Source: a virus
Strand: one strand, 5' to 3'
DNA length: 54,764 nt
Virus record (IMG/VR): IMGVR_UViG_3300020160_000534
Coordinates: 1 to 54,764 of that record
In this document: positions 4,860-53,794 of the stretch, piece after piece
How the letters are laid out: each line of letters begins with the position of its first letter
Numbering within the stretch: position 1 is the first letter of the stretch
Program-made: the position numbers and the translations under genes
The notes under the pieces: model-generated
The model's database searches: none
Told to the model about the DNA's origin: nothing
What the model saw: only the letters and a program-made list of their open reading frames with translations

Positions 4860-5903
4860 TTAGTCGATCAGGACATTATGGAAATCGTCTAGTAAAAATA
4901 GCCACTGAGGACGTTGTACGTTGAGGTTTGATATTTTCTTTGATTTGTTTAGAGCATAATCTCGTTCCCCGAATTCTTCGGAAAGGATTTGTCTCATTTG
5001 CCAACGATGTGTATTGGCATCCCCACGAACTTTAGTGAAAGGTTCACTAGTGGTCATAGCCCAGCGTTGGAGATCTTCAGAATCAAAAAACGCATGCATC
5101 TTTTTAGTCTTTTCTATCTGAAGCATTGTTCTATGTTCATATAAGCCAGTGTACCAGTCTAGATTAAAAATGCAATACCATCTCAAATCGGCGACTGTTT
5201 CAATCTTTCTATAAGAATTCTTTATCATTGGATCAAGGAATTCTAATAGTTTAGGATCTATGTTATTCTCATAAGATTCGTGTATAGTTTCTGGAGTGCC
5301 GAGAGTGTGGTGGAACATAGCAGTTCCACCAGTGGCGAACATATCATCTGTTGGACCAAATAACTGGTTTCCACCCATACCACTAACGAAGATGCAATCT
5401 CCTACATTGAAGGAAAATTCGTTATCAGTTGGCTCTACGATAGTATAAGGAAACTCATGTTTTAATCTTCTATCAAACATATCACTAGATTCTAAAATAG
5501 AATTTAATGTACCCCAAACTCTAACTTGATCTGGATCGTTGGAAAATTTCTTTAGCATGAATAAGGCAAATGTACTATCTATTCCACCCGACCATAGCAC
5601 ATGGACCACTTTATTAAGACTTAGTAAATGCTTAGCACGTTCTTCACAAATTTCATAGAAAGATTTGTTAAATGAAGAGTCTACGCTTGGGATTGGATGT
5701 GCATCTACTGCAATATTTAAATAGTGGGGTATCTGCAGAGACCTATCAAATACCATATTATGTTTGTTTAATCCAAAGTTTTCATACTGTTTAAACAAAT
5801 CATCTGAATACTTCTCAGAAAGAAATGGTGAGATCGCTTGTGGATCTTTACGAATTAATTCTGGTACTTGTTTCTTATTGTAATATAAAATTTTTGGTTT
5901 CAT
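4860..5903 (-). CDS. PP-loop ATPase, asparagine-synthase-like
   Basis: A 347-residue protein with a PP-loop motif SGGIDST at residues 105-111, preceded by a hydrophobic strand (VVHVLW). This is the ATP-pyrophosphatase signature of asparagine synthase C-terminal domains, QueC and related adenylating enzymes. No glutaminase domain is present: residues 1-95 are a family-specific lead with no Cys at position 2. A second feature, FVSGMGGNQLFGPTDD (residues about 173-190), resembles the conserved second loop of asparagine-synthase-like enzymes (GxGGDELFGGY). Known members of this fold form amides, including macrolactams in lasso peptides, by adenylating a carboxylate. It is the last gene of the radical SAM/DctP cassette but has its own late promoter and leader hairpin. 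Substrate unknown; modification of a virion protein is inference. Confidence 0.75.
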   Translation of the reverse strand: MKPKILYYNKKQVPELIRKDPQAISPFLSEKYSDDLFKQYENFGLNKHNMVFDRSLQIPHYLNIAVDAHPIPSVDSSFNKSFYEICEERAKHLLSLNKVVHVLWSGGIDSTFALFMLKKFSNDPDQVRVWGTLNSILESSDMFDRRLKHEFPYTIVEPTDNEFSFNVGDCIFVSGMGGNQLFGPTDDMFATGGTAMFHHTLGTPETIHESYENNIDPKLLEFLDPMIKNSYRKIETVADLRWYCIFNLDWYTGLYEHRTMLQIEKTKKMHAFFDSEDLQRWAMTTSEPFTKVRGDANTHRWQMRQILSEEFGERDYALNKSKKISNLNVQRPQWLFLLDDFHNVLID

Positions 5904-5911
5904 AGCCCCTC

Positions 5912-5961
5912 ACGTCAAAATAAAAAGGGGATGACAAGCATCCCCTGTATAATGTATTTAG
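5912..5961 (-). promoter_or_regulatory. Late promoter, leader hairpin or terminator
   Basis: On the minus strand a CTAAATAC box (5961-5954) is followed after 7 bases by a perfect 8-bp hairpin AGGGGATG/CATCCCCT with loop CTTGT (5946-5926), then TTTTTATTTT. The hairpin plus T-run fits an intrinsic terminator after the DctP gene. The box just before it would start a transcript at the hairpin base. The Shine-Dalgarno of the next gene (GAGGGG, about 5904-5909) can pair with the 3' arm CCCCT, so the 5' arm and the SD compete for it. Confidence 0.6.
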
Positions 5962-5967
5962 TATAGA

Positions 5968-6915
5968 TTAATGAGACTTAATACTCTTAACCAAACCAGA
6001 ACTAAAAGAAGACTCAAATCTGTCATGAAGTGGAGTTAATAAATCTTGCATCTTTTTCTGTTCAGATTTAGACATAGAGATAACTTCAACTTTTTCAGCT
6101 TTGCACTGATCTAGAATATTTGGAATATCTGCAACAGATTCTTTACGTTCTGCCTTTGCTGCATTAAATGCTGCTTCAGACATGATCTGTTTAGTTTCAT
6201 CGTCAAACTGATTGAAGAAAGCCTCATTGACAATGATAGAAGTCAAGAACAAACTATGTGCAGTATCGTTAACATACTTGAATGATTTGTTTTGCTGTAG
6301 TGGGAAAATACGAACATAAGTTGATTCACCTGCATCGATGTTTCCACGATCAGCCTGTTCATTCATCTGTTCTAATTCGATGTTTGGATTTGTAATGGCA
6401 CCAAGAGTTTCGAAAGTTGCTTGGGCAACTGGGCTAGAACTAATTCTAACTTTTTTACCTTTCCAAGATTCAATCGTATCTGCTTTAAAATTAGCAGGAA
6501 CTACACGATATCCACCAGAATAAGTAAATGCCATTGCTTTGATCTGAGAGTTCTTCTCAACACCAGCTAACAAATTAGCACCGATTGGACCATCAAGAAT
6601 AGCATCAGCATGATCGTGATCTCTAAACAAGAATGGTAGATCTAACACATTAAGATCTGGATTGATGTCTGCAAGCCAAGTTGTATAGATGTGACCCATC
6701 TCAACTTGTCCAGAACCAACTAAATCCATCATAGATCGTTTTGTTAGTTGTTTACCGAAATTGTACTTTTGAGAATACTCAGTCAATGAGAGAATCTCAA
6801 CATTAAATTTTCCATTAGTTCTTTCGTTAACTTCTTTGGAAAATGCCTCGGCTACCTTCAAAAATAAACCAATAGGCTCATGAGCGATAACCCATTTTAT
6901 ATTTTTAACTGTCAT
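5968..6915 (-). CDS. DctP-type TRAP solute-binding protein, no signal peptide
   Basis: A 315-residue protein with the full pattern of the TRAP dicarboxylate-binding family. Visible are AEAFSKEVNERTNGKFNVEI near residue 22, GSGQVEMGHI near residue 88, LDLPFLFRDHDHADAIL near residue 113, and WKGKKVRISSSP near residue 150. The last includes the arginine that coordinates the substrate carboxylate in this family, and EQMNEQADRGNIDAGES follows near residue 180. Family members are periplasmic and normally carry a signal peptide. This one starts directly with the first strand (MTVKNIKWVIAHEP), so it equals a mature protein kept in the cytoplasm or built into the virion. It overlaps the 104-residue gene by 11 bases and has a strong AGGAG inside that gene. 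No DctQ/DctM membrane genes are present in the window. A role as a virion ligand is inference. Confidence 0.85.
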   Translation of the reverse strand: MTVKNIKWVIAHEPIGLFLKVAEAFSKEVNERTNGKFNVEILSLTEYSQKYNFGKQLTKRSMMDLVGSGQVEMGHIYTTWLADINPDLNVLDLPFLFRDHDHADAILDGPIGANLLAGVEKNSQIKAMAFTYSGGYRVVPANFKADTIESWKGKKVRISSSPVAQATFETLGAITNPNIELEQMNEQADRGNIDAGESTYVRIFPLQQNKSFKYVNDTAHSLFLTSIIVNEAFFNQFDDETKQIMSEAAFNAAKAERKESVADIPNILDQCKAEKVEVISMSKSEQKKMQDLLTPLHDRFESSFSSGLVKSIKSH

Positions 6916-7219
6916 TTTTTAGTTCTCCTAATTTGCTGGTATCAAAAGACCAGACTTGTGTTTGGTTCTGAAAATTTAAGGTTCTTTTCAAGAAAGCCAC
7001 CTTATTATTTATAAGATCTGTAATTGTATTTAGGTCAATCTCATCTTTATTTATAACAGAGTGTAGTGGAATCAGGCTATCTCTGTACCCATATTCTTTA
7101 GTATCACTATCAAATTGGAATAGTTCTTTAACAGTATAATGTTCGATAGTTCCACTGTTTCCTACAATTCTAGGGAATTGATTAATCTCTAATACATATC
7201 CTTTAAAGAAACTACTCAT
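6905..7219 (-). CDS. Unknown 104-residue cassette protein
   Basis: I do not recognise a family. The protein is soluble, has no cysteine, and is rich in charged residues and aromatics. A beta-rich first half (YVLEINQFPRIVG, HYTVKELFQFD) is followed by a likely helix (LNTITDLINNKVAFLKRTL). Its start overlaps the stop of the radical SAM gene as ATGA and its end overlaps the DctP gene by 11 bases, so the three are translationally coupled. That coupling suggests a stoichiometric partner, for example a peptide-recognition or chaperone subunit of the radical SAM enzyme. This is inference from position only. Confidence 0.6.
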   Translation of the reverse strand: MSSFFKGYVLEINQFPRIVGNSGTIEHYTVKELFQFDSDTKEYGYRDSLIPLHSVINKDEIDLNTITDLINNKVAFLKRTLNFQNQTQVWSFDTSKLGELKNDS

Positions 7220-8607
7220 GATGCCATCACAATCGGTATAATCTTTTTAGGTTTTCTAACCTTTTCTGGTTTACCCTTAACCCACCAGAAAATATCTTTA
7301 CGATCTTCTCTTAATGGACCCTCGATATACTCAGGGATACATCCTGTTATCTCTTCAATTGCGATACAAAAGGGGATGATATTATCACTAAATGCATTAT
7401 CACAAGAAGCATCCCATAGTGGACCAGAAAGAAACATACAAGCACCTTTGCAAATATGTACTACTGGACAGTTTGGGCATTCTTTTCTATCGCTCCAATG
7501 AGTAGCTGAATCTAATCTAGTTGAAGAAAGATCAGATATATGCCCAAGTTTATGAGATATACCTGCGGGATTTGTAGAAACTGGACTTACATTTTGGCAG
7601 GTTAAAACATTACCATTTAAGTCAAGAGCAATAGAATTAGATTTATCCATACCACACTTTTGGGGTAGTGATTCGATTCTAACACCATTCGCTAATGAGT
7701 CAATAAACCCACCGACTTTCTGCCCAATAACATCAAATCTTGTTACCTTACCAGCACGCAATTCTTCTAATGCTTGATTTCTATAAGAAATATCTTCTTC
7801 ACCATCAACTAAAGAATTTGCTAATCCACCCTCGTCATAAGCATCAACGAAAGCACCTTCGCCTATCGTTAAAAATTGTTTATATTTTTCACCAATTTCA
7901 GCTTCAACAAAATTGAAAAAGAATTTTTCGATATCAGCACGACTAGTATTCTTAGAGTTAATCATAGAATTAAAACTAAACATACGCTTTGGCGCAAGTC
8001 TTTTATAAAGGTCTATGATACCTTCCTTAGATTTAAGATCATCTAAAGGATCTGGTCCACGAACTGGTTGTCCTGGACCATCGTGCGAAACTGCTACACC
8101 AAAATTATATCTTTCCAACCACTCATTTTTTTCTATGTCTAGTAAACTACCATTTGTAATTACTGACATACGAGCATTTGGATATTTCTTATTCAATGCT
8201 TCCGCAAGGGGCTTCATTGTTTTCCAATAAACAAATGGTTCGCCACCCCAAAACTCAAAATTTGTATCTCTACCGAATCCATCAGATCCACCTTCATACC
8301 ATGAATCCATATTAGAAACAAATGGATCTACATCATTTGGATTAGTTTCATCTGCATGTGGTACGAATCTTTGATTACAGTAATCGCATTCAAAGTTACA
8401 AGAAAGACCTAGTTGAATCTTAACTGTTTTTAAATCTTTTTTACCATGTTCAATCTTTGCAGGAGAAACAACATCAGGTTGTGTTCTAACATCTGCAATA
8501 ACATTGGAACCATTTTCCCACTTTAATGTGCTAAGAGAACTATTGTAAAATAATTTCTTAGTAACCTTTTCTGCTGCACTCCATGCTGAAATTTCAAAAA
8601 TTGCCAT
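7216..8607 (-). CDS. Radical SAM/SPASM peptide-modifying enzyme
   Basis: A 463-residue protein counted from the ATG at 8607, chosen because GAGGA lies five bases upstream; an in-frame TTG four codons earlier is less likely. The radical SAM cluster motif is CNFECDYC (Cys70, Cys74, Cys77), followed by FWGGEPFVYWK, the glycine-rich SAM-binding strand. The C-terminal part carries a SPASM/twitch-like cysteine set: QKCGMDKS, VLTCQNVS, ECPNCPVVHICKGACMF, ASCDNAF and PFCIAIEE. That arrangement is typical of enzymes that modify peptides or proteins, such as anaerobic sulfatase-maturating enzymes and sactipeptide maturases. It is coupled by ATGA to the next gene. The nearby substrate candidate is the His/Cys/Asn-rich fibre tail encoded two genes upstream. 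The chemistry cannot be read from sequence. Confidence 0.9.
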   Translation of the reverse strand: MAIFEISAWSAAEKVTKKLFYNSSLSTLKWENGSNVIADVRTQPDVVSPAKIEHGKKDLKTVKIQLGLSCNFECDYCNQRFVPHADETNPNDVDPFVSNMDSWYEGGSDGFGRDTNFEFWGGEPFVYWKTMKPLAEALNKKYPNARMSVITNGSLLDIEKNEWLERYNFGVAVSHDGPGQPVRGPDPLDDLKSKEGIIDLYKRLAPKRMFSFNSMINSKNTSRADIEKFFFNFVEAEIGEKYKQFLTIGEGAFVDAYDEGGLANSLVDGEEDISYRNQALEELRAGKVTRFDVIGQKVGGFIDSLANGVRIESLPQKCGMDKSNSIALDLNGNVLTCQNVSPVSTNPAGISHKLGHISDLSSTRLDSATHWSDRKECPNCPVVHICKGACMFLSGPLWDASCDNAFSDNIIPFCIAIEEITGCIPEYIEGPLREDRKDIFWWVKGKPEKVRKPKKIIPIVMAS

Positions 8608-8627
8608 ACTGTTCCTCAAAATAAATT

Positions 8628-8658
8628 ATCCTATCAGAGTATTTATCCCTGATAGGAT
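8628..8658 (-). promoter_or_regulatory. Inverted repeat enclosing a late-promoter box
   Basis: A perfect 10-bp inverted repeat (ATCCTATCAG/CTGATAGGAT) with an 11-base loop. Read on the minus strand the loop contains GATAAATA (8647-8640), a late-promoter-like box, about 33 bases before the radical SAM ATG. Readthrough RNA would fold the full hairpin. RNA started at this box would begin inside the 3' arm and lack it. The hairpin could also attenuate transcription from the upstream fibre gene; the following T-rich stretch is not a classical terminator tract. Confidence 0.5.
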
Positions 8659-8677
8659 GTGTTCAAAATATAAAATG

Positions 8678-9628
8678 TTATAATGTCTTAGTAAATTCAG
8701 TTCTGTTAACCCAATATTTAAAACCCATTTTAACTTTAATAGTATCACCTGCATCCAAACCAGTTGTGACTACTTTAAAAGAACCAGTTCCATTAGTGAC
8801 TGGGATTTTTGATTTCGGTAAATAACCTTCAGATTGGACCAGATAAATGTTATTGATTTTTGAATCTGTTGTAAAATTAACTGTAACAATATCACCAGAT
8901 ACTGTTGAAGATGTCACTGTTATTTCTGGTAAAAGTGTATCAAGAACCATTAAGACAGTTGGATCATTTGGATGTTTAGTTAAATTACCTGTCACAGTAA
9001 CTCTATGATCACCCTGTTCTGTAATTGGGATATTATTTCTTTGCATTTCTGGTAAAATTGTATCATAATCAGGATCTGTACTAACTACAGGTCTAACAAT
9101 ACATGCAATAATATCAGCAGGAGTTGGGTTATCTTTAGTTACCCAAAATACTATTAATCCTTGTGTTCCATAGATATTGAAATTTTTAGTGGGTAAAGTA
9201 TTTGCGAAAGAATTAACTAGATCTGTATCTACTATAGTTAGTTCTGCAGCATCGTGTTCTATATCTAATGGTATATTTTTTAATATAATATCATCTTTAA
9301 TATACCAAAGTGTACAGGCATCTGCATTACTTAGATATGATAGATCTAAAGAAAAATTATTAATAATTCTATTATTTTCAGTAACATTAATAAACTTAAC
9401 TTTTAAAATATTACCAGTTAAATTTAGATCCCATTTAAAATCAAATTCTAAAGAAGCGTCAGAGTTTAAAGATGCCATATTTGCATCTATATGTGATGCA
9501 AATACATCTGCAGTATAAGATGATGTATCACCTAATTCTAATAATGGTAAATATTTGTGATGGTGTATGGCATTAAGACTTACGTCTCCATATCTTCCTC
9601 TATGCTGTTTCTTTGTAATGTATAACAT
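8678..9628 (-). CDS. Unknown virion-type protein with Ig-like C-terminus
   Basis: A 316-residue protein without recognised family. Residues 1-25 are basic and His-rich (KKQHRGRYGDVSLNAIHHHK). The middle is strand-rich. Residues about 228-316 have the spacing of an Ig-like or fibronectin-like beta domain (LPEITVTSSTVSGDIVTVNF ending in VKMGFKYWVNRTEFTKTL). It starts 12 bases after the His/Cys-rich fibre stop, with the SD (TAAGGA) overlapping that stop, so the two are co-translated. Its place between the fibre and the radical SAM enzyme suggests a fibre accessory or a second cassette substrate. Function unknown. Confidence 0.55.
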   Translation of the reverse strand: MLYITKKQHRGRYGDVSLNAIHHHKYLPLLELGDTSSYTADVFASHIDANMASLNSDASLEFDFKWDLNLTGNILKVKFINVTENNRIINNFSLDLSYLSNADACTLWYIKDDIILKNIPLDIEHDAAELTIVDTDLVNSFANTLPTKNFNIYGTQGLIVFWVTKDNPTPADIIACIVRPVVSTDPDYDTILPEMQRNNIPITEQGDHRVTVTGNLTKHPNDPTVLMVLDTLLPEITVTSSTVSGDIVTVNFTTDSKINNIYLVQSEGYLPKSKIPVTNGTGSFKVVTTGLDAGDTIKVKMGFKYWVNRTEFTKTL

Positions 9629-9640
9629 TTATTGGTTTCC

Positions 9641-10852
9641 TTAGCAATTACAGTTACAGTTATTGCAATTACGATGATGGTGGTGTGGATCGAAGTGGTG
9701 GTTTGAATCTAGGTGCATTCTAGAATAACAGTTAATAACAATGTTACCGCAGTTACCGCCTGCATTACCAGTTTGTCTACCCAGGTTTGACGGAGTACTA
9801 TCTGGGTTTGCTACTTTAGTATTATGTGGAACCCATCCACCATAGTTACCTAAATCGTTAGCAAACTGTGATAGGTGGTGTGGACGACCTTGAACCTGAG
9901 ACCATGGGGTATACTGAGCATGGTGCGAGAACTGAGAAGTGTGCGCAGCATGAGCATTAGAAGTAGATGCAGAACTACCAGAAATATTCGAAACAATAAC
10001 CGCACCAGTGTTACCCTGAACAGAAGTAACAGGGACTGAAACAATTACGTTACCAGTGTTACCCTGAACTGATAATACGTTTGCATTAATCGTTGGATTA
10101 CCAGAAACACCATCACCATTAGAAACAGTAATACCAGAACCAGCTGCAATTGATCTATTAACAGCAGTACCTGCACCAGTACGAATATAAAGTCCATTAC
10201 CAGAAACACCTGCAAGTGCAGCTAAGTTTGCCGCATAAGCCTGAACATCAGAACCAATCGTTAAACCAAGTGTACCACGAGCAGTGGATGCATCAGCGTC
10301 ATCGATAAGAGTACGTCCGTATGCAGAAAGAGTTGTAGTAGAAGCAGTACCTGCGCCAGTAAAATAGGGCAGTGCATTTGCTGCAGAAGTGGTAGAAGCA
10401 AGTGCAGCTAATTCACCATCATAAGCCTGAACATCAGAACCGATAGCCAAACCTAAGTTAGATCTAGCAGATGATGCAGTAGTAGCACCAGTACCACCAC
10501 CAGCGATAGCCACTGTATAATTCAAACTAGAAGCGATAGTCGCTGTACCAGTTAACGCTGCAGTAATAGTACCAGCGGAGAAGTTACCAGAAGCATCACG
10601 AACAACAACAGTAGATGCTGTGTTTGCTGAAGCAGTAGTCAGTCCATCAAGTAAGTCAGCGTCTAGACCAGATCCAGCACCATCAACAGTAATTAGTTTG
10701 GCTAGAACATCAGCTGCGGTATAGCTGGCTGCGGTTAAACCAGTCGCAATGGCTGTGTTTAAGTTATTAAAGTTATTATCGACTTCTGTATTCGTAAGAG
10801 GACTACCCTTAGTCGATCTTAGCGTAATAGATGCGGATGTAATATTTGGCAT
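9641..10852 (-). CDS. Tail fibre with His/Cys/Asn-rich C-terminal tail
   Basis: A 403-residue fibre. Residues 1-40 contain [20 protein letters not shown], the conserved start of many T4-like fibres. Residues 60-240 carry fibre repeats ([41 protein letters not shown] twice). The last roughly 110 residues change character: 14 histidines and 6 cysteines, with [13 protein letters not shown] followed by an N/C alternation (NNCNCNC) at the very end. In T4 gp37 the fibre tip binds iron through HxH motifs, so a metal-binding tip is a sound reading. Because a radical SAM/SPASM enzyme and a PP-loop ATPase follow in the same cassette, a post-translationally modified tail is the alternative. It heads the cassette. 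Confidence 0.75.
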
Positions 10853-11095: not shown

Positions 11096-14000
11096 TTATG
11101 CGCAGGCAATAACCCTAAAGTCTTTGATAATTGGAGTAGCAGAACTATTAGATGACTGCATAACGATTTTAATCGCAATAGTATCGAATGGTGTCATATT
11201 GTTCATAGTATAGTCTACATCAGAGAATGCATAGTTTCCATTGTCGACTTTAATTATTCCATTATTATCAGCGGAGGCTAGTGTATATCTAATAGTATCT
11301 AACTGTTTACTATCACCCAGACAAGTCTTATAGTAAACTTTGATATCAGCTTCATTCGGGCAATTAGCTCCAAGTTTAATTCTTACGAAAGTAGAAGAAT
11401 TTGCAAATTTAATAGGTGTTGTTACATACTTACTTAGCGAACTTCCTCCACGTGGTGCAATTTCATCGTAGAATAATTCTCTGACTGCAACATAGATTGC
11501 AGAAGAAGTCACTGTCTCTGCGGTAAATACAGCCCCAGAAACAGAATCTACATAAACAGTTCCAGTAGTACCATTATCGCCATAACCAGTAACTATCCAT
11601 GTACTATTATTTGCTGCATTTGAAGAACCACCAGTAGTTAGATATCTACCAATTCCAAGTCCAGCCATTAATCCTCTAACAGTCGCATCAGTAGAAGTTA
11701 TAGAAGATGCACTTCCAACCCACTGTAAAGTAGCAGTACCATTTGTTGCCACACCATATGTATGAGTAGGTGCACTGACACTAGCAGTTCCTCCTACAGT
11801 ACATAAGTAAAGTTTATTTCCATAGTAGTACTGGGTTCCTTGAGTTAAGGATTGAGAGCCTGATAAAGTTAATAAAGTTCCAGTAATAGCATAGTTATAT
11901 GATCCACCAGTAACTGCTACCGCTACACCACTATTTGGCACACCAGTAATAGTTCCAGCTGCTCCAGCAAACATTATTTTTGTATCTAAAGAAGCCACAT
12001 TTGTATTGGATTCAGTAGGATAATTTAATTTATTTGAAACTAATACTGCACTAGAACGAGCAGTATCAATCACAGGAGAAACTGCATTGTTTGTAGTAGA
12101 AATCTGACACAACAATTGTAGAGATTTTTCTCCACTCATATAAGTGTTTTCATTAACCTCAGAAGCAACAACTCTTGTTTTGTCCCAAATGTTGTCAATA
12201 TCAACTACAACTGGAGAATAAGAAGTATCTATAACATATGATGTTTGTGCTCCATCAGGAGATGTTCCCGATGTTGTTTTCATAGAGAATTTTGCTAATG
12301 ATTCACCAAAAGTTTGCATCTGCAAAGTTGGTTTAATTAAATCATATGCAATATTTCTAGAAGCCTTTAGTAAGTTACCACCAGAATAACCAGTAGAAGT
12401 AGCAACTGTACTCGTAGTTATTGTATAACAATGAGCATCTACGTTAGCAATAACTTTAGTCGTATTGATTTCAGCAAATGGGATTCCATTAATATTAGAA
12501 GTCAAACCACTGAGTTGAACACTAGAACCAGAAGACATACCATGGTTAGGATGCCAGATTCTAATAACATTAGATCCAGTAATAGTTTGGATTGGGTTAT
12601 TAGTTAATTGGTCATGAGGTAAAACATTATTCGTCATAACAATAGCACCAACCGTATTTGTAGCAAACACAGCACGATGTATTGTAAATTTAATATCTTG
12701 ATTTTGATCTGGTGTCCATGTAGAAGCATTCTGAGATTTGAACATTACACCAGCATATGGTTGTTCAGAAATAGTTCTACTTGTTCCTGGGATAACATCA
12801 CCCATATTAGAAATCCAAACTCTGTAATCATTTGAATCAGACTGAATAACAAATGCATACTCTTTACTATCTTCTACAAAGACAGGAGATTCGAATGTGA
12901 ATTTTGTTGGTGTGTTATAGTCTGCATAAGAATTACCATCAGGGAGAGCAACAGATGTATATCCTGATGCTTCTGCAGTAGTTCCAGAAACAGGGGCATT
13001 AACCAAATCTGGATTTAAAGTTACACTACTGAATGGAAGAACCTGATGTGTCGGATTACCATTAACCATCTCACGAATATGTACAGTTACTGGCACATTT
13101 ATAGATTTAGTTGCAAAGAATAAATCAATACTTGTTAAGAATGCGCCACCTCTTGATTCTACATAGAATGATTGTGCAAGTGGATCTGTCCATGCTGGTG
13201 TTAAATCAGCAATAATTCTGGTAGAAGTAGAACTACCACTTCTATTAACGACCTCATAAGTATTAGGATCACCAGCACGAGGATTAATCTGTTCTTGAAC
13301 AATAGTAGAATTTCTAACAGCATTAACTATACCTTGAACAGTTTGAAGTGTTCCAGTGGCTTCATAAGTGCCGATTCCACGAGAAGTATAATTTCCTGTA
13401 GAAGTTGCAGAATCCATTAGTTTTAATGTAGATTTACCAGTACGGAAACGAACAGATTCAGTATTTGGTATATTAAACAAGAAGTTTAATTCACCTGATT
13501 GATTTGTAGTTAATGTAGTATTAGCTGTTACCGAAACTACAGTTCCTGTTTGATTACTAATAGATCCAGTAAATGTATTACCTGAACTAAATGTTCCGAT
13601 AACATTAACCAAATCAAGCGCATAAGATGTAGTACCATCATCATTATGTATTAAATACTTACCAACAACTACTGCTGATGCAGAATTGTCTGATTTTGTT
13701 ATTACGTCACCACGTGTTAAACAAACTTGTACGTCTGTACCGATTCTTCTTTTAATGTCTGTGCTAGATCCACCGACATTAGTTGACGTGTTCCAAAGTT
13801 TATGGTTTGCTGCTTTTAGAATTTCAGTAGAACCTGTTGGAGTATATACGAGTTTAGTCGTTGGAGTACAATATGAATTTATATCAACTTCATTAAAATA
13901 AGCATAAAAGCGAGTAGATGGCTTTAATTGTTTAGATTGAACTAATACAAAACGTGATCGCACATAAGGAACGATAGAAGTTGATACTGTTCTATCACCA

Positions 14001-17000
14001 ACTGACTCATAATCTGTTTTTGCTACTATAGAAGTTTTAGTACCATTTCTTGACTTAATGCCAGTCTGAGACCATGAATCAGTAGTTCTTTCCATCAAAA
14101 AATTATCACTCATGTAGTTATTAGTAGTAACAGTATGTTGAGGAGTTCCAGACCAATCTGTAGTCCATGCACCATAAATTGGCCAACCATTATTTAAATC
14201 TATCATATTCTTAAGAGAATTATAATTTCCCTCTACCTGCTGAACAAGATCAGGTACTCTGTTAGTGTCAAACCAATCATCTGATGCAGGAGTTATCTGA
14301 ACACTTCCTAAGAATGTATAGATGGCAAATGGATTAACATATTCTAATCTAGACGCATATGCCTGTGTGATCAGAGGTGTAGTAGTATAAGGTAAAGTTA
14401 TAATATCACCAGTTAGCTGGTAATTTGCATTAGTTCTTGCAGAAGTAGTAGAGGCTTGTTCGATTAAATCTACATTATGCATTGTATGGGCTGGACGCAG
14501 TAAGTTAGCCCCCATATCAATAGAACAGCTAAGATCAGAAGTTTTCGGATCAGCTACAAGAGCACTGCTGCCAAAGTTATCAACAACAAAACCATTCTTC
14601 ATTCTATCCATACCATTACTATCTGGAATTTTTAAACTGGATGTTTCTGATTCCAACAAAGATAGTGATGTGTAGTATTCTAAATTATTAATTCTATTTT
14701 CTAACTTACCGATGTCACGCATTGTGTAGCGTTTATTATCAACTTTTGAAACACTCACATTAGTTGATGCAGTGCCAAAAGTATATGGTTCTAGAGATAG
14801 ATTATACAATACCATTCCAAGTGCTGGTGTTACTGGTTCTCCAGGAACAGTAGATGGAACACCTTGTATATCAACTAATTTACCAGTTGGTTCTAAAATA
14901 ATTTTATCTTTTCTGGCAAGATAGTAACTATAATCTGCTTTGACATATTCACCACGTTTTGGTATAGAAGTCATAGAAGAGCCTGTACTAGTAAAGTTCT
15001 TCACTCCACTACCAGTTGTTTTATTAGCAACTCTTGGTCTAAAGTCAATAGAGTCTCTTAGATTAGCAGGAATCTGTTTGTAATCAATACCACTATAAGA
15101 GTTAACATCAAAGTAATCACCAGCACCATGTTCAAAGTATTCATATACAACTTGAACTGGATTAGATGGTTGAGTGTAAGATGGTAGTAAATTTAATTTA
15201 CCATAATCATAATGTGTCAAACGCTGACCATTATCGAAAGAATATCTTTCTGAAATATCTTGAGTATAAGATCCTGGGGTGCTACCAAAGGCAGTTCCTG
15301 GAGCCATCTTAATGCTTATGATTCTGAATATATCTGCTTTATCTAGAACGATTGATGCTTGTTGAGCAGCAGTAGCACTAATGAATGTTTCAGTGACTTG
15401 TGTTAGTGTTTTAGATTTCTCGAAACCAGATCCAGAACGAATAACTGCAGCAATTACAGTATATGTTCCAGATGTCGGAACAGTAATACTTACGTTAGAA
15501 GTACCAGTACCACTAATATTAGACGATGTTATATTAACAACAGATCCATCAGAATCCTTAACTACAAGATAACTATCATTATCTGCTGCAGAAGCAAAAT
15601 TACCTGATGTATTTAAAGCAAGAGTAGTAGTGGCAGTATTTACACTATTAAACTTAACATAAGCTGTATAGTTTAAATTATTAACTCCACTATTGCCAGA
15701 TGTTCTCATAGAACGAACAGAACTATATGCAAGTGGGAAAACCAAACTATTTGATATGGCTTCTTGTAGAACAGTTGTTACTAGTTGATATTTTACACCA
15801 GTTACTGATGATATTGAGCTATCAACTGTTAAAGAATTTTGAGAAGTAATAGATGCAATTCTTCTATACAGAGAATCATTAATAAGGATGTAATCACCAA
15901 CTTTTAAATCTGTTAGGAAAGAAGTCCCAACACCAGTTACAGTATTAGTTGCAACTGCAGTAACTGAACCAGTTAAATTAACTAATGCTGGTTGTATGTC
16001 GGCTGAGAAAGAAGTCCCAACACCACTACCAACAGTATAGAAAGACTTAGCACTTCTGTTGAAATCGAATCCAGATTTCATCTGGATATCCCATAGACCT
16101 AATTTATATTGTGAAGTAGATCCATAAGGAAGAATATTGTGCCACTCAATAAAACGAGCACGTGCAGTTCCGATTAATTGTGCATTAGAAACTGCTGACG
16201 CATTACCACGATTAGAAGATCCAGTGATACCGTCATAGATATTAACTAATGTACCAGTATCGATAGTTGGTACATAATTTAAGTTAGTTACAATAACATA
16301 ATTTCCAACAACTGGTGTTATTACAGAATCGATCGCTTGATCGAAATCTCTAGCCTTTGGTACTGTTATGTATGCAGTAGCAGGATTTTCAAGTTCTGCT
16401 CCAGAAACATATGCTCTTCCAGCATCAATACCGATAGCAAGATCACCTTCATTACCAGTTAATTTTATACCACGATTGTATACTGGATTTTCATCATATT
16501 GCCAGTTAACACCGCTATTACCTGCACCATCATATGCTGAGCCAGAAGTATGAGTTGGAGGAGTAGTTACTGATGACGCACTATTTTTAGCGGTATATGT
16601 ATAACCACCATATGTAACAATATCATTAATTAGATATGCGCTATTTTGCGTCCACGCTCCACGATCATTATTACGTGCTTCACGAACATCTACAGACCAC
16701 CCATTAACAGTGTAGTCACCATTAGTGTCAAATGTTCTTCTTTCCATCTCATTTTGAATCTGAGTGTAAATTATATTATATGCAGTTTCTTTAACAATGG
16801 TATTAACAACACCACCAGTTACACGAATCAATTCTACGAAGTTCTGATCATCAGTTGAATCCAACGATCTTTTAGATAATGTTAAATCAATATAGTAACG
16901 ATGAGCACCTGGAGCAGCAAAGTTATAACTATTCTGCGCATTATCTAAAAGAGTTTCATCATCTTCTGCAGTAGTAATATTTTCTGTTACGTTCAATCCA

Positions 17001-17614
17001 ACACGATATGATGGAGAAGGGTCATATTTGTTAAGTGTAATTGATTGGGTATCGCAAAGAACAAAATGTCCATTAATATAATAGACACCTCTTTCGATTG
17101 TAGCTAAAGATCCTTTACCTGTAGCTGAACTTGCCTGTGCTTGGAAATAAAAACCAGTATCAGTATGAAGAACTTCATTGCCAGCAAAAACTTTTTGCGT
17201 AGGATCAGTTGCAGAATTTAAATAACGAACATAAAGAGTTGTTGGATCTGTATCTTCTGCTCGCTGAGCCTTAATAACCTGCGCCTTTAATCCACTTGAA
17301 CCTGTGATAACTAAACCCTGCAAAGAGTCAATAAATGTAGCAACGGCTACACCATTATACAATGCCTGTAGTTTAACATAATCAATACCTTTTGTAGTAT
17401 TAGTAATAGTTTCAGCAGATACCTGTCCAGGTATAACCATGGCACCTTGTTTGAAAATATTATCGCCATGGCGAGTAATCTGATTCTGAAGGATTGTCTG
17501 GAGTTGTGTTAGTTCACGTGCTTGAACAGCAAAAGAAGGGCGAAACAAAATTCGATAGAATTTTTTTTCTTCATCGAAATCATCATTATACGGTTCGGTA
17601 TTAAAATCTAGCAT
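11096..17614 (-). CDS. Large DUF4815-type baseplate/fibre protein
   Basis: At 2172 residues this is the largest gene in the window. The N-terminus (MLDFNTEPYNDDFDEEKKFY, then FRPSFAVQARELTQLQ) and the segment around residue 390 (GIKLTGNEGDLAIGIDAGRAYVSG) are the signature of DUF4815 virion proteins of T4-like cyanophages and relatives. Further on, DPLAQSFYVESRGGAFLTSI (about residue 1475) introduces a second conserved domain with VTVHIREMVNGNP. Two stretches (about residues 325-375 and 1925-1970) resemble a small carbohydrate-binding-like module that also occurs twice in gp8 here. Its position after gp8 corresponds to gp9/gp10 of T4. Probably a baseplate periphery or fibre-attachment protein; the T4 equivalence is not established. 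Confidence 0.8.
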   Translation of the reverse strand: MLDFNTEPYNDDFDEEKKFYRILFRPSFAVQARELTQLQTILQNQITRHGDNIFKQGAMVIPGQVSAETITNTTKGIDYVKLQALYNGVAVATFIDSLQGLVITGSSGLKAQVIKAQRAEDTDPTTLYVRYLNSATDPTQKVFAGNEVLHTDTGFYFQAQASSATGKGSLATIERGVYYINGHFVLCDTQSITLNKYDPSPSYRVGLNVTENITTAEDDETLLDNAQNSYNFAAPGAHRYYIDLTLSKRSLDSTDDQNFVELIRVTGGVVNTIVKETAYNIIYTQIQNEMERRTFDTNGDYTVNGWSVDVREARNNDRGAWTQNSAYLINDIVTYGGYTYTAKNSASSVTTPPTHTSGSAYDGAGNSGVNWQYDENPVYNRGIKLTGNEGDLAIGIDAGRAYVSGAELENPATAYITVPKARDFDQAIDSVITPVVGNYVIVTNLNYVPTIDTGTLVNIYDGITGSSNRGNASAVSNAQLIGTARARFIEWHNILPYGSTSQYKLGLWDIQMKSGFDFNRSAKSFYTVGSGVGTSFSADIQPALVNLTGSVTAVATNTVTGVGTSFLTDLKVGDYILINDSLYRRIASITSQNSLTVDSSISSVTGVKYQLVTTVLQEAISNSLVFPLAYSSVRSMRTSGNSGVNNLNYTAYVKFNSVNTATTTLALNTSGNFASAADNDSYLVVKDSDGSVVNITSSNISGTGTSNVSITVPTSGTYTVIAAVIRSGSGFEKSKTLTQVTETFISATAAQQASIVLDKADIFRIISIKMAPGTAFGSTPGSYTQDISERYSFDNGQRLTHYDYGKLNLLPSYTQPSNPVQVVYEYFEHGAGDYFDVNSYSGIDYKQIPANLRDSIDFRPRVANKTTGSGVKNFTSTGSSMTSIPKRGEYVKADYSYYLARKDKIILEPTGKLVDIQGVPSTVPGEPVTPALGMVLYNLSLEPYTFGTASTNVSVSKVDNKRYTMRDIGKLENRINNLEYYTSLSLLESETSSLKIPDSNGMDRMKNGFVVDNFGSSALVADPKTSDLSCSIDMGANLLRPAHTMHNVDLIEQASTTSARTNANYQLTGDIITLPYTTTPLITQAYASRLEYVNPFAIYTFLGSVQITPASDDWFDTNRVPDLVQQVEGNYNSLKNMIDLNNGWPIYGAWTTDWSGTPQHTVTTNNYMSDNFLMERTTDSWSQTGIKSRNGTKTSIVAKTDYESVGDRTVSTSIVPYVRSRFVLVQSKQLKPSTRFYAYFNEVDINSYCTPTTKLVYTPTGSTEILKAANHKLWNTSTNVGGSSTDIKRRIGTDVQVCLTRGDVITKSDNSASAVVVGKYLIHNDDGTTSYALDLVNVIGTFSSGNTFTGSISNQTGTVVSVTANTTLTTNQSGELNFLFNIPNTESVRFRTGKSTLKLMDSATSTGNYTSRGIGTYEATGTLQTVQGIVNAVRNSTIVQEQINPRAGDPNTYEVVNRSGSSTSTRIIADLTPAWTDPLAQSFYVESRGGAFLTSIDLFFATKSINVPVTVHIREMVNGNPTHQVLPFSSVTLNPDLVNAPVSGTTAEASGYTSVALPDGNSYADYNTPTKFTFESPVFVEDSKEYAFVIQSDSNDYRVWISNMGDVIPGTSRTISEQPYAGVMFKSQNASTWTPDQNQDIKFTIHRAVFATNTVGAIVMTNNVLPHDQLTNNPIQTITGSNVIRIWHPNHGMSSGSSVQLSGLTSNINGIPFAEINTTKVIANVDAHCYTITTSTVATSTGYSGGNLLKASRNIAYDLIKPTLQMQTFGESLAKFSMKTTSGTSPDGAQTSYVIDTSYSPVVVDIDNIWDKTRVVASEVNENTYMSGEKSLQLLCQISTTNNAVSPVIDTARSSAVLVSNKLNYPTESNTNVASLDTKIMFAGAAGTITGVPNSGVAVAVTGGSYNYAITGTLLTLSGSQSLTQGTQYYYGNKLYLCTVGGTASVSAPTHTYGVATNGTATLQWVGSASSITSTDATVRGLMAGLGIGRYLTTGGSSNAANNSTWIVTGYGDNGTTGTVYVDSVSGAVFTAETVTSSAIYVAVRELFYDEIAPRGGSSLSKYVTTPIKFANSSTFVRIKLGANCPNEADIKVYYKTCLGDSKQLDTIRYTLASADNNGIIKVDNGNYAFSDVDYTMNNMTPFDTIAIKIVMQSSNSSATPIIKDFRVIACA

Positions 17615-39889: not shown

Positions 39890-40057
39890 GTTAAGCAAGT
39901 TACCACCATAGAATGCAACATCCATAACTAGGGCTTCATTATCAGACTCAAGTTTCTCGATTCGTTTCTTGAGAACATCAATTTGTTGCTCATAAATTTT
40001 TAATTGTTCACCCATTGCTAAGACTGCTTCAGTTTCTTGTTGTTGTAAAGTTTTCAT
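39869..40057 (-). CDS. Small coiled-coil protein
   Basis: 62 residues, almost entirely a heptad-patterned helix (QLKIYEQQIDVLKKRIEKLE). Its start overlaps the stop of the upstream oxygenase gene as ATGA, which supports real translation. The C-terminal 15 residues (YGGNLLNLSCNNK) are uncharged. Probably an oligomeric adaptor; no function known. Confidence 0.55.
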   Translation of the reverse strand: MKTLQQQETEAVLAMGEQLKIYEQQIDVLKKRIEKLESDNEALVMDVAFYGGNLLNLSCNNK

Positions 40058-40692
40058 TTTAACTCCAATTCGTCTTCTCGATTTTTGTTTAATAACCCAT
40101 AAGGAAATATATTAAATGCCAGTGAATATCTTGTAATGTTGGATATATTTTCTGGCATCATATGATCCAAATTAGATGGAAATAAAATCAAATCACCCTT
40201 CTTTGGTTGATATTTCCAAGATGATGAATTAAATTCATTATATTGAAATTCTTCTTCAAAGGGAATTCCAATTACAACTGGATTACCCATTTCATTTATG
40301 TTAGATCCATTTTTATGAAAGATGATGGGACTAGTGTTTTCATCAACATCCAAATAGAATACTCCACTAAAAAAACTATTCGAATGATAGTGTTTTTGTC
40401 CAAAATTACTTGGTTCTAATTTAACTACCCAAGATGTTGTCAGTCTAAATTCAACTTCTTTATTAAGCCCAAGTACATCATAGAAAAACGTATTATAATT
40501 TTGTTCAATAATTGTTCTTAACGATTTTAATTCAGATTTATCTAGTATCTTTTTGGATATTGTATAACGACCAGATCGTTCTTTAGTATGAAATATTTCA
40601 AACTCATAGTTAGTCAGAATATCGAAGAGATCGTTATCATATTGAATATTATTAATATATATTGGAGTTGGGAATGCAGAGAACACTTTCAT
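40054..40692 (-). CDS. 2OG-Fe(II) oxygenase-like protein (TIGR02466 type)
   Basis: 212 residues. The start (FSAFPTPIYINNIQYD) and the core QKHYHSNSFFSGVFYLDVDE are typical of the TIGR02466/2OG-FeII_Oxy_5 family common in marine phages. The distal part LILFPSNLDHMMPENISN then TRYSLAFNIFP supplies the second histidine and the arginine for 2-oxoglutarate. Family members are putative hydroxylases of unknown substrate. Strong RBS GAGGAG. A paralogue of the 48912-49514 gene. Confidence 0.8.
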   Translation of the reverse strand: MKVFSAFPTPIYINNIQYDNDLFDILTNYEFEIFHTKERSGRYTISKKILDKSELKSLRTIIEQNYNTFFYDVLGLNKEVEFRLTTSWVVKLEPSNFGQKHYHSNSFFSGVFYLDVDENTSPIIFHKNGSNINEMGNPVVIGIPFEEEFQYNEFNSSSWKYQPKKGDLILFPSNLDHMMPENISNITRYSLAFNIFPYGLLNKNREDELELK

Positions 40693-44952: not shown

Positions 44953-44983
44953 TTATTTTCCTATAAGTTGTAATAAGGTTAAA

Positions 44984-45014
44984 ATTATATGGCTGGCACA
45001 CTACGTGGCTGGCA
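44984..45014 (-). promoter_or_regulatory. Promoter with direct repeats before the barrel gene
   Basis: TATAAT (44989-44984) lies about 32 bases before the ATG at 44952, but no -35 match is present. Instead two copies of TGGCTGGCA (44990-44998 and 45006-45014, 16-bp period) occupy the spacer and -35 region. This looks like an activator or repressor site. Confidence 0.45.
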
Positions 45015-45019
45015 TAATA

Positions 45020-45326
45020 AAGTGGTAGGTTATTCTGTTACGAGGAAACCTACCGAAACCCTAAGCAGTGTTTAGGCTGCTAATGCGAACAGTTCGTCGT
45101 TTGCGTTTACGTTGTTTTAGTTTTAATGTCTTCTCTGACAAGTTGTCCACTTCTGTACTTGTTGCCCTGTCGAAACCTAGTCACCCCCATCAGAAGCACA
45201 ATAGCTGGTAGTATTCACTCCATTTAAAACCTGCCGTTGTGACTGGTTCACTAATATGCTTTTGGTGGAGGTGGGGAGAATCGAACTCCCGTCCAGAACA
45301 CTTTTCTAGTTGCTTCATACAACCAT
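45020..45326 (-). ncRNA. ssrA: Two-piece (circularly permuted) tmRNA
   Basis: Read on the minus strand. The acceptor piece comes first: T-stem GGGAG, loop TTCGATT, CTCCC (45290-45274), then CACCTCC, discriminator A and an encoded CCA ending at 45263. After 74 intervening bases the coding piece starts GGGGGTGACTAGGTTTCGAC at 45188. GGGGGUG pairs with CACCUCC to form a 7-bp acceptor stem whose third pair is G-U, the alanine identity element. CAGGGCA and TGTTCTG can form helix P2. The tag frame is 45104-45072, GCA AAC GAC ... GCC TAA, encoding ANDELFALAA, followed by a small hairpin CCTAA/TTAGG. An 8-bp hairpin at 45054-45024 may close the coding piece or terminate. tmRNA frees stalled ribosomes and tags the product for proteolysis. 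Mature ends are estimates. Confidence 0.93.
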
Positions 45327-45332
45327 ATCACT

Positions 45333-45361
45333 ATTATACATTATGTATTCTTGCGTGTCAA
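45333..45361 (-). promoter_or_regulatory. Consensus sigma70 promoter of the tmRNA
   Basis: TTGACA (45361-45356), 17-bp spacer, TATAAT (45338-45333), a full consensus match. Predicted start near 45326, just before the acceptor piece. The TGA within TTGACA is the stop codon of the upstream oxygenase gene. Confidence 0.85.
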
Positions 45362-45825
45362 ATAATTCTTAATACTAATACATATCTATCTGCAGATGGA
45401 GGATTCACGGAATGCGGTGCGCTCTCGTCTGCTGGTGCAATTACCATATTACCTGTTAGTGGTTTTATAGTAATGCCTTGATTTGGATAAACCAGTTCTC
45501 CACCATCGAATTCTTGATTTAAAAATACAACACCAGAATATTTCCATGCATTAAATACTTCTCGTGAATCTTCAATCGAATAGTTATCATTATGTAATAC
45601 GGAACCAATTCCTGCACTATATTGCATTACAAACGCTCGATCAAAATTAATATTTAATTTTTTACTTAGATCAATAACAATGTCATGCTCTAATGCTCGT
45701 GTTCTTTTTAGATTATTATAATCTAAAGAAACTGCTTCTGGAGTAGCATTTAGTAAATAATTTATTAATGTCTGACAGTCATCATTAGATAATACATGCT
45801 CAAAAAAATTAATATTAGATTCCAT
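45358..45825 (-). CDS. 2OG-Fe(II) oxygenase-like protein
   Basis: 155 residues. The core AFVMQYSAGIGSVLHNDNYS holds the first His and Asp (HND), WKYSGVVFLNQEFDGGELVY is the central strand pair, and APHSVNPPSADRYVLVLRII gives the second His and the 2-oxoglutarate Arg. This is the prolyl-4-hydroxylase-like layout. It overlaps the exonuclease gene by 11 bases. Substrate unknown. Confidence 0.75.
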   Translation of the reverse strand: MESNINFFEHVLSNDDCQTLINYLLNATPEAVSLDYNNLKRTRALEHDIVIDLSKKLNINFDRAFVMQYSAGIGSVLHNDNYSIEDSREVFNAWKYSGVVFLNQEFDGGELVYPNQGITIKPLTGNMVIAPADESAPHSVNPPSADRYVLVLRII

Positions 45826-48907: not shown

Positions 48908-48915
48908 TTATTTAG
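48908..48915 (-). promoter_or_regulatory. Late box CTAAATAA
   Basis: CTAAATAA (48915-48908) overlaps the stop of the upstream oxygenase gene and lies 15 bases before the ATG at 48892, with AAGGAG between. It suggests late expression of the small protein, PhoH and the endolysin. Confidence 0.5.
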
Positions 48916-49514
48916 TTCGGATTAAGATTAAAAGCGACGCAAATGCGCTCTTCAGAACTAATACTTGTAGGTACTTGATGCTCTAACCAACTTGGCCACA
49001 TTAAAAATGTTCCTTCGATCGGATTAATCACATACTCAGGTAGTAATTTATAATCTTCTCGAGGTTTACCAAAAATGATTGGGTATTGTACAAATTTCCA
49101 ATAATCTCTTGGATCATTAAAAATTATTGGTGTTGTGTCTTTTGGTATTTTTAAATAAAAACAACCAGAAAGTATAGATCCTGGATGCGAGTGTATTGGA
49201 TGTGCACCACCTGCCTTTATTTTATTAAACAAATAGTATGGTTTAAGAGTCCACATACTAGAATCTATACAATTATCTGCAAAGTATTTTCTAGAGACAG
49301 TGCTTATGTAATTATTAAGTTTATTTAATCTAAAATCATTTTGTTGAAGAAGCCCTGCAGAATTCACACTATAAGTAGAATCATATTTGTCTTGTCCAAG
49401 ATATTTAATACCATGTTGGTTTATGTAATCTTCAGCGACAGGTAGAATTTCTTTTGCTAGGACTGATTGATCGTCAATAAACAATGGTGTTGGAAATAAA
49501 TTTATGTATTGCAT
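48912..49514 (-). CDS. 2OG-Fe(II) oxygenase-like protein (TIGR02466 type)
   Basis: 200 residues. It begins INLFPTPLFIDDQSVL, with the core GGAHPIHSHPGSILSGCFYL and distal GTFLMWPSWLEHQVPTSIS then EERICVAFNLN. It is a paralogue of the 40054-40692 gene but quite divergent. The histidines (HSHP and EHQV) and the C-terminal Arg fit the family. Substrate unknown. Confidence 0.8.
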   Translation of the reverse strand: MQYINLFPTPLFIDDQSVLAKEILPVAEDYINQHGIKYLGQDKYDSTYSVNSAGLLQQNDFRLNKLNNYISTVSRKYFADNCIDSSMWTLKPYYLFNKIKAGGAHPIHSHPGSILSGCFYLKIPKDTTPIIFNDPRDYWKFVQYPIIFGKPREDYKLLPEYVINPIEGTFLMWPSWLEHQVPTSISSEERICVAFNLNPN

Positions 49515-50135: not shown

Positions 50136-50723
50136 TTACTCAATAATTCCTGTAATATCAGTATTAATGATAGAAATATTAATTTTGTTAATAAAGAAAT
50201 TTAATGTTAATCTTGATTCATTAATAGTTTTTCCATATCCATTCATTGCTGCATGAGGCATATCTGCTCGATATAAAACCATTCTATTAAATTTATATGG
50301 AATAATCTGCCCATCGAGTAAAGTTCCATGATTATCACCTTCAAGATGTTCATTCAAATAAACAATACCAGCATATAATACTGTGTCTTTATGAATCCAT
50401 TTGTCTTCATATAAGTCATTTTCAAATAAAGCATGAAAAAGGCTAGAAATATCTGCATTAATACTTATACTAGAATTATATGGTGTATTTAATGTGAATG
50501 CTGATAATATTTTATTGTCGATTTGATGATAAAGAGATTCTTCTAAAATATATTTTAATGAAAGTGTTCTACTACCAAGATATGATATAGGTTTATCTGA
50601 TTGTATATTACCATAATCATTAGGATTATCATTCACACTATAAAATTTTTGTTTTAGTGCAATATCTACAATAGAATGTGGATCTTCGAAAAAAGAATCT
50701 AGTACAACAACATTAGCAAACAT
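50136..50723 (-). CDS. DUF6445-like 2OG-Fe(II) oxygenase-type protein
   Basis: 195 residues. VVLDSFFEDPHSIVDIALKQ is the start typical of this group. WIHKDTVLYAGIVYLNEHLE holds HxD, and YKFNRMVLYRADMPHAAMNG then ESRLTLNFFINK hold the distal His and Arg. It shares one base with the membrane-protein gene. Substrate unknown; one of six such proteins in this arm. Confidence 0.7.
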   Translation of the reverse strand: MFANVVVLDSFFEDPHSIVDIALKQKFYSVNDNPNDYGNIQSDKPISYLGSRTLSLKYILEESLYHQIDNKILSAFTLNTPYNSSISINADISSLFHALFENDLYEDKWIHKDTVLYAGIVYLNEHLEGDNHGTLLDGQIIPYKFNRMVLYRADMPHAAMNGYGKTINESRLTLNFFINKINISIINTDITGIIE

Positions 50724-52907: not shown

Positions 52908-53794
52908 ACTTCAACTACCTTTAGTTCAAAGCGATCAGCACGTTCTTCGTAGTTGATGTAACCACGAGGATTGCACACAATACGAGTAGAACCAACCATG
53001 TAGTCAAAGTCTTCATGAGTATGACCATGAGTCCACAATTTAATTCCTGGACGATCAAGCACAAATTCATCCAACACAGAGTTGTATGCACCATTCATCA
53101 ATTGGTCATTCTTGTAACGAGGATGCTCAGAACCTTTGCTTGGAGCATGATGACCAACGACAACCATTGTCATCCATGGAGGAGTGACTTTATAAGTTTC
53201 ATCAATCAGATTCAACATTGCTTTATGGTCTTCAACAGCATCCTGTGGAGACAAAGTTGCTGGACGAGTCTTGAATTTAACTTTCTTTTTATCAGCATCA
53301 TCAGCATCAAATACTCTGTAGTTGACCATTCGATTACTGTTTTCGCAAATCTGAAAGTCATTCATACGACGAGACACATGATTCATGGTCATCTCATCTT
53401 CACCATTCATATCAGTCCAGAGTGTACCACCGACAAAACGATAGTCACCATGATCCCAAACTTCTTTATCAAGGAAGTGCACATTTTCCAAATGATTTGC
53501 AGCCAGCATTGCACGAATTTTAGCTGCACTGGTAGCGTAGTCACCATGATAGTGCTCATGATTACCCATAACATAAACAACATGGGGAAACTGGAATGAG
53601 CAACGCTTGAAGAAGTCTACGAATCGTTGACTCTTCGCACCCTCAAGAAAATTATGTGGGTCGGGCTTGCCAAGATCAGCAGTAACCATGATGTCACCAC
53701 TAAGCACAAGAACATCAGCATTCTGATCATTCTTGATCATGAGGTCACCGAACTCTAGGTGGAGATCGCTACAAATTGCTATTTTCATTTTCAT
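52904..53794 (-). CDS. Calcineurin-like metallophosphoesterase
   Basis: 296 residues with the five metal motifs: ICSDLHLEFGD, LVLSGDIMV, YVMGNHEHYH, VVGHHAPSK and WTHGHTHEDFDY. It is a complete enzyme. Related phage enzymes act on cyclic nucleotides, nucleic-acid ends or protein phosphates, and the substrate cannot be told here. It overlaps the oxygenase gene as ATGA; a second in-frame ATG lies at 53788. Confidence 0.9.
   Translation of the reverse strand: MKMKIAICSDLHLEFGDLMIKNDQNADVLVLSGDIMVTADLGKPDPHNFLEGAKSQRFVDFFKRCSFQFPHVVYVMGNHEHYHGDYATSAAKIRAMLAANHLENVHFLDKEVWDHGDYRFVGGTLWTDMNGEDEMTMNHVSRRMNDFQICENSNRMVNYRVFDADDADKKKVKFKTRPATLSPQDAVEDHKAMLNLIDETYKVTPPWMTMVVVGHHAPSKGSEHPRYKNDQLMNGAYNSVLDEFVLDRPGIKLWTHGHTHEDFDYMVGSTRIVCNPRGYINYEERADRFELKVVEV

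Follow-up and report, generated by a model that had tools for sequence, protein, structure and literature searches.

Recurrent pairing of a radical SAM/SPASM enzyme with alternating-cysteine tails of fibre-type proteins in phages and probable prophages

Introduction

Among the described systems closest to the locus considered here are the SPASM-type radical S-adenosylmethionine (SAM) maturases of sactipeptides and ranthipeptides (PapB, CteB/SCIFF and RumMC), in which a radical SAM core is combined with a SPASM domain and a Cys-rich substrate is encoded nearby. The precursors of PapB-type ranthipeptides are defined by Cys-x3-Asp repeats. The maturase of quinohemoprotein amine dehydrogenase and the anaerobic sulfatase maturases act on a protein rather than on a small peptide product, and in the His-Xaa-Ser system (HxsB/HxsC) a repeat-type target is served by dedicated radical SAM enzymes. 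The present report concerns a radical SAM/SPASM enzyme gene and a nearby fibre-type gene in the virus record IMGVR_UViG_3300020160_000534, whose whole length of 54,764 bases, with tail genes of T4-like type, is referred to as the window. The window enzyme shares the domain composition and the nearby Cys-rich candidate substrate of the peptide maturases, but here a large virion protein with strictly alternating cysteines at its end would be the substrate.

SPASM enzymes have been reported to join cysteine to residues that include Asn and Asp, and RumMC2 accepts Ala (PMC8326336, PMC8188230). At the tip of the T4 long tail fibre protein gp37, alternating metal-ligand residues stand at a trimeric fibre end, comparable to the cysteines of the window tail; the ligands there are His rather than Cys and no enzyme is involved (PMC11705849). 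Radical SAM cassettes form a variable part of the host recognition cluster of pelagimyophages, therefore radical SAM genes near fibre genes are not new; the passages on these cassettes do not mention a Cys tail (PMC7029224). PHROG 1802 and the annotations of Achromobacter phage JWF, both discussed below, also predate this analysis. A literature search, to which most subscription papers were closed, returned no description of the Cys tail, of its pairing with the enzyme or of the Hint variant described below.

Results

The fibre-type gene of the window (9641..10852, minus strand) encodes 403 residues and matches PHROG tail fibre and structural families; its tailed homologues lie beside the enzyme gene in relatives. 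The first-pass annotation of this DNA had described a tail rich in His, Cys and Asn, and this was borne out: the first 293 residues contain neither Cys nor His, and all residues of both kinds fall within the last 110. The alternating-cysteine tail, with its stop codon, occupies approximately 9641..9685 and contains the only CxCxC found among the 122 window open reading frames (ORFs) of at least 60 residues. The enzyme gene (7216..8619, minus strand) has a listed TTG start with an in-frame ATG four codons on. Its product matches PHROG 1802 (E 1e-61) and passes the SPASM model TIGR04085 (34 bits, cut-off 27), while the Pfam Radical_SAM score is slightly under its threshold (28 against 29.5), in agreement with the earlier assignment to the radical SAM/SPASM enzymes. 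The CxxxCxxC motif of the radical SAM core (C74, C78 and C81) is invariant in 23 aligned relatives, as are seven cysteines of the SPASM region (C322, C341, C381, C384, C390, C394 and C406). A K-x-I-P-I-type motif was also observed near the C-terminus of the enzyme, with I461 and I463 invariant in the 23 sequences and P462 present in at least 90% of them.

The surroundings of the enzyme gene were assessed in viral and bacterial relatives. The viral set, to which Achromobacter phages JWF and 2-1 were added, comprised the best 80 of 93 relatives; its enzymes formed 45 clusters at 90% identity. From bacterial contigs 64 of 70 loci were counted, forming 52 clusters, with L277, L281, L282, L284, L285 and L286 omitted at enzyme profile scores below 140. 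ORFs of at least 60 residues (viral loci) or 40 residues (bacterial loci) were considered, and a strict Cys run was defined as four alternating cysteines at any position in the ORF, or three if these lay no more than about eight residues from the C-terminus, on the strand of the enzyme and within 6 kb. Such an ORF was present in 36 of the 45 viral or phage clusters and in 39 of the 52 bacterial clusters, compared with 1/45 and 3/52 respectively on the opposite strand. The contig ended too early for judgement in three further viral or phage clusters (L034, L063 and L081) and in eight bacterial ones. Counted per ORF across the viral and phage loci fetched with the enzyme, a strict run was found in 60 of 1484 same-strand ORFs and in 3 of 1235 on the opposite strand. 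A rule accepting CxCxC at any position was rejected as too loose, with 24 of the 1235 opposite-strand ORFs satisfying it; CxCxCxC occurred in none of them. In 95 loci the tail nearest to the enzyme lay upstream, and in nine it lay downstream.

Enzyme neighbours in the relatives repeatedly end in NCNCNC, ACACACACACGDACGG or similar sequences. The loci fetched with the enzyme yielded 110 tail ORFs on 105 loci, which gave 94 non-redundant Cys runs. Composition was taken from these loci only, those fetched by NCNCNC being biased towards N. The 355 residues that separate tail cysteines are almost entirely N (204), A (88) or D (42), together 334; in 81 of the 94 runs the first Cys follows an N, and 78 runs stop no more than eight residues short of the C-terminus. 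The tails are C-x-C repeats, and the Cys-x3-Asp repeats of PapB-type precursors were not found in them. Tails rich in His were seen in the clade of the window, but most of the other tails listed are not of this kind. The bodies of the 110 tail ORFs fell into 14 clusters at E 1e-6 or 18 at E 1e-10, therefore the tail behaves as a module. Clustering without a low-complexity filter was dropped, as it lumped 187 of 198 ORFs together.

Two unusual arrangements of the tail were also seen. L204 (4360-4926) and L211 (175-742) each contain three consecutive small ORFs of 86-87 residues, every one ending NCNCNC. In L079 (9480-10379) and L083 (7021-8031) about 170-200 further residues (CSKIIC.KL...) come after the Cys run; they differ from the Hint variant and gave no Pfam match.

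The association was also approached from the tail. Viral contigs were scanned, without use of the enzyme, for DNA coding for NCNCNC and a stop codon, giving at least 119 stretches; the counts below apply among the stretches listed, and some contigs entered both tests. The enzyme was found on the same locus for 62 of 93 in-frame occurrences and for none of 35 out-of-frame ones. Where at least 4 kb was available on both sides, these figures were 25/26 and 0/4. When ORFs ending NCNCNC were clustered at 80%, 38 of 47 clusters had the enzyme, three lacked it and six were undecidable; two of the undecidable loci, L111 and L170, have ORFs resembling the NCNCNC ORF of L157. No strict Cys-run ORF was present on either strand of the 35 out-of-frame loci (304 kb), nor at any of four other phage radical SAM loci (Campylobacter CP220, a faecal contig, Erwinia Huxley and Thermus phiMa).

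Comparison of the enzyme with curated models identified mostly peptide and protein maturases as the best matches, thioether-forming maturases among the nearest. Against the PapB-type ranthipeptide model NF047865 the window enzyme scored 50.2 bits and seven relatives at most 70.5, below the cut-off of 340. The quinohemoprotein amine dehydrogenase maturase model TIGR03906 (43 bits, cut-off 453) and the sulfatase maturase models were also among the best-scoring, yet below cut-off, and no substrate of these kinds is found near the window enzyme. The HxsB model was likewise matched below its cut-off; the repeats of the window are Cys-x and not His-x-Ser. In the PDB the enzyme matched the radical SAM domain protein 5wgg (E 2e-13), which we take to be CteB. 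Judged by these family scores, the window enzyme belongs to the radical SAM/SPASM enzymes but to none of the named families.

The enzyme was matched over most of its length by only three annotated phage records, those of Achromobacter phages JWF and 2-1, at 41-45% identity. Their gp28-gp30 region resembles the window in having a fibre with an NCNCDC run, a gene for 240 residues and a small gene downstream. Unlike the window phage, these phages are of siphophage type and carry a Hint domain immediately behind the Cys run (PF05203 from residue 308 of JWF gp28; 47.5 bits, cut-off 32.1), a domain that Pfam did not detect in the window fibre. No homologue of the DctP, PP-loop or 104-residue proteins of the window, described below, was found in the 17 kb loci of JWF and 2-1. 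PF05203 also matched at the corresponding place in L232, L260, L267 and L283, below its cut-off. Hint-type sequence followed the Cys run in 2 of the 45 viral or phage clusters and 7 of the 52 bacterial clusters, a distribution needing three changes on an enzyme tree built by a quick method from 76 of the 132 long enough enzymes plus that of the window, with long branches flagged. One Providencia phage encodes a similar Hint protein; in this single case the 12 kb examined contained no enzyme gene and no strict Cys run.

Ten neighbours of the enzyme from five bacterial loci were scanned against phage protein families. L220 and L232 gave central tail fibre J, L251 a tape measure protein and L256 two fibre-type proteins; matches to fibre families were weak in L283, and in L272 a strong match was to a PHROG without known function. 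The scanned loci are probably prophages, to judge from these matches. Two or more radical SAM ORFs are adjacent in L272, L276 and L251, a second radical SAM ORF being present in 5 of the 52 bacterial clusters, and in L272 two radical SAM genes stand beside two CxxC-repeat proteins (HCSYCSYCTYC...). Loci of this kind are possibly a sister system.

In the window the enzyme and fibre genes belong to a cassette of six consecutive minus-strand ORFs (4860-10852): fibre, 316-residue protein, enzyme, 104-residue protein, DctP and PP-loop protein. All six were recovered as annotated. They are bordered by a large gene (11096-17614) and by other genes of fibre type, and fibre-type genes flank the cassette on both sides. 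The statement that several starts overlap stops held at two of the five junctions (enzyme/104-residue protein by 4 bases, 104-residue protein/DctP by 11), the other three being gaps of 12, 58 and 64 bases. The 316-residue protein (8678..9628, minus strand), previously labelled an Ig-like unknown, indeed has no Pfam match above cut-off; the Ig-like label corresponds to a sub-threshold beta-sandwich match only (E 0.045). Only the Cys tail accompanies the enzyme more often than the C-terminal domain of this protein, which is present in 22 of 45 viral or phage and 35 of 52 bacterial clusters.

The remaining three genes were less constant. DctP and the 104-residue protein accompany the enzyme in the same 13 of 45 viral or phage clusters and in none of the 52 bacterial clusters; the PP-loop protein does so in 20 and two respectively, and is present in 12 of the 13 clusters with the other two, the contig of the thirteenth (L032) ending early. 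Because they occur near the enzyme in a minority of clusters, the 104-residue, DctP and AsnB-like PP-loop proteins are, on gene neighbourhood, an accessory module. The suggestions that the six genes form one unit and that DctP is the substrate are not borne out by these counts. The outcome named beforehand as refuting the proposal, a lack of co-occurrence of the families in relatives, was not observed.

The DctP-family solute-binding protein (5968..6915, minus strand) was correctly recognized as lacking an export signal: PF03480 matched at 154.7 bits (cut-off 23.4) and NF037995 at 114.7 (cut-off 50), TIGR00787 fell below its cut-off (122.1 against 175.05), and the first 50 residues contain no hydrophobic segment, the highest mean over 15 residues being 0.83. 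The PP-loop protein (4860..5903, minus strand; 347 residues) was also as proposed, with an SGGIDST motif of which SGG-x-DS is invariant in relatives apart from one position. Sequence-family matches were weak. Its predicted model (predicted local distance difference test score, pLDDT, 90) most resembled the beta-lactam, asparagine and carbapenam synthetases (Z 11.8-14.2 over 199-270 residues, root-mean-square deviation 3.2-5.6), with GMP synthetase and LarE at Z of about 10. The N-terminal glutaminase domain is missing, and alignments begin at about residue 131 of the solved chains, in the synthetase part. The 104-residue protein (6905..7219, minus strand) has a predicted alpha/beta fold but no Pfam match, and for its model (pLDDT 87) neither PDB nor BFVD gave a match at E 0.001 or below, which does not show a new fold.

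Nucleotide comparison of the whole cassette with phage records gave 96 with short matches, none covering 80% of the query, and those listed lie in structural genes of cyanophages. By tblastn, DctP matched eight records at 20.6-25.5% identity, including unannotated fragments and one bacterial genome record, and the PP-loop protein matched one phage record. Elsewhere in the window a permuted transfer-messenger RNA (tmRNA) gene was located (44981-45375, minus strand; ARAGORN tag ANDELFALAA), scoring 146.6 bits with the Rfam model beta_tmRNA (cut-off 84) and 133.7 with tmRNA_permuted (cut-off 47). The match to beta_tmRNA suggests a betaproteobacterial host. Five window ORFs (40054-40692, 45358-45825, 48912-49514, 50136-50723 and 53791-54384) have by eye, from their motifs, the look of 2-oxoglutarate/Fe(II) oxygenases; ORFs resembling these candidates, again by eye, adjoin the enzyme in L025, L034, L037 and L038.

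Discussion

The core of the system is a pair, an enzyme of PHROG 1802 and a virion-type protein with an alternating-cysteine run that is mostly C-terminal. The evidence of association for the link between the two is good; the chemistry and the function we infer. It is probable, with considerable confidence, that the enzyme acts on the tail, and the earlier proposal of a maturation of the fibre resembling that of ribosomally synthesized and post-translationally modified peptides (RiPPs) gains strong support from the two-way co-occurrence, the modular Cys tail and the intact cluster cysteines. The fibre would be made with a CxCxC tail visible at its C-terminus, or ahead of a Hint domain that may release the tail by cleavage, and the enzyme from the same gene block would then act on it. 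Thioether cross-links of the tail cysteines are the most likely products, at about even chances; the sulfurs would be joined to the intervening Asn, Ala or Asp or to neighbouring residues. This idea fits the N, A and D between the cysteines because SPASM enzymes join Cys to Asn and Asp, and RumMC2 accepts Ala.

A cross-linked tail would form a rigid fibre end, for which stiffening, trimer locking or receptor contact can be considered. Its position suggests, tentatively, that the finished tail has a role at the fibre tip, in fibre stability or receptor contact. In the clade of the window, the 104-residue protein, the unexported DctP and the AsnB-like protein may, speculatively, add a second change. 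The most extended form of this proposal is rather unlikely: that RiPP chemistry finishes fibre ends in many environmental phages and prophages, a Cys core peptide fused to a structural protein being cross-linked by a dedicated radical SAM enzyme, uncovered by a self-cleaving Hint domain in some lineages and, in the clade of the window, decorated by the AsnB-like ligase with a carboxylate carried by DctP.

Several observations weigh against an action of the enzyme on the tail or against thioether chemistry. Six viral or phage enzyme clusters (L016, L061, L056, L046, L084 and L015) and five bacterial ones (L234, L274, L276, L261 and L272) had flanking sequence with no strict Cys run. Looser repeats occur in several of them, namely a 15-Cys protein in L234, internal NCNCxC in L046 and L056, an NCRNCNC end in L015 and L016 and an NCNCNCNCCNC ORF further from the enzyme in L276; L084 has no Cys repeat of either kind. 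Conversely, three of the 47 NCNCNC clusters (the L114 group of L114, L177, L195, L162 and L144, with an ORF of 202 residues, together with L157 and L151) have no enzyme despite at least 4 kb downstream, therefore the tail can exist without it. No curated maturase model reached its cut-off with the enzyme or the seven relatives, and models for sulfatase maturases and viperin scored the enzyme in the same range as those for thioether-forming maturases. No leader peptide or recognition domain (RRE) was identified, although no defined search for a leader was made. Separately, an ORF of 286 residues in L151 was not accepted as a radical SAM enzyme, its only match being a bare CxxxCxxC.

The main rival likens the CxC tail to the HxH iron sites of fibres: it would bind a metal or form an Fe-S site where the trimer ends, and the enzyme would modify the residues in between or help otherwise, with no cross-linking of Cys. 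Strict alternation would put all cysteines on one face of an extended chain, HxH repeats bind iron in T4 gp37 (PMC11705849), the window tail is itself also rich in His, and the NCNCNC clusters without the enzyme would be accommodated. A pure metal site, however, needs no dedicated SPASM enzyme, yet tail and enzyme co-occur in both directions, and the His-rich tails seen in the clade of the window are not matched in most other tails listed. We regard this explanation as unlikely.

A different modification of the tail or its vicinity, for example conversion of Cys to formylglycine as by anaerobic sulfatase maturases, or epimerization, would be consistent with the match to TIGR03942 (40 bits), with the sulfatase-maturase structures 4k36 and 4k37 (E about 2e-10) and with the deposited name of the JWF enzyme, 'anaerobic sulfatase-maturating enzyme'. 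That score is far from the cut-off of 349 bits, families that form thioethers score equally or higher, and a run of Cys separated by N, A or D does not resemble the sulfatase motif; this too we judge improbable. That the enzyme acts on the 316-residue partner, DctP or a small molecule, with Cys-tailed fibres adjacent only since fibre blocks collect accessory genes, is very improbable: the C-terminal domain of the 316-residue protein is indeed frequent near the enzyme, and pelagimyophage fibre regions collect varied genes, radical SAM cassettes included (PMC7029224), but prediction works equally well from tail to enzyme and from enzyme to tail, and the tail is commoner than the 316-residue partner (36 against 22 of 45; 39 against 35 of 52) and far commoner than DctP (13/45 and 0/52).

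With modification of the Cys tail by the enzyme as the preferred explanation, the class of chemistry is known and its use on virion proteins appears to be new. The recurring pairing of enzyme and tail in phages and prophages suggests that these viruses chemically finish their fibre proteins. If this is correct, PHROG 1802 would gain a likely function, and Cys-tailed fibre genes that depend on a partner enzyme could be predicted. How fibre genes are read would be affected because the finished fibre would need a second gene, and there would be a bearing on phage stability and receptor recognition. Chemistry known from antibiotics and enzyme cofactors would then serve the apparatus by which viruses contact their hosts.

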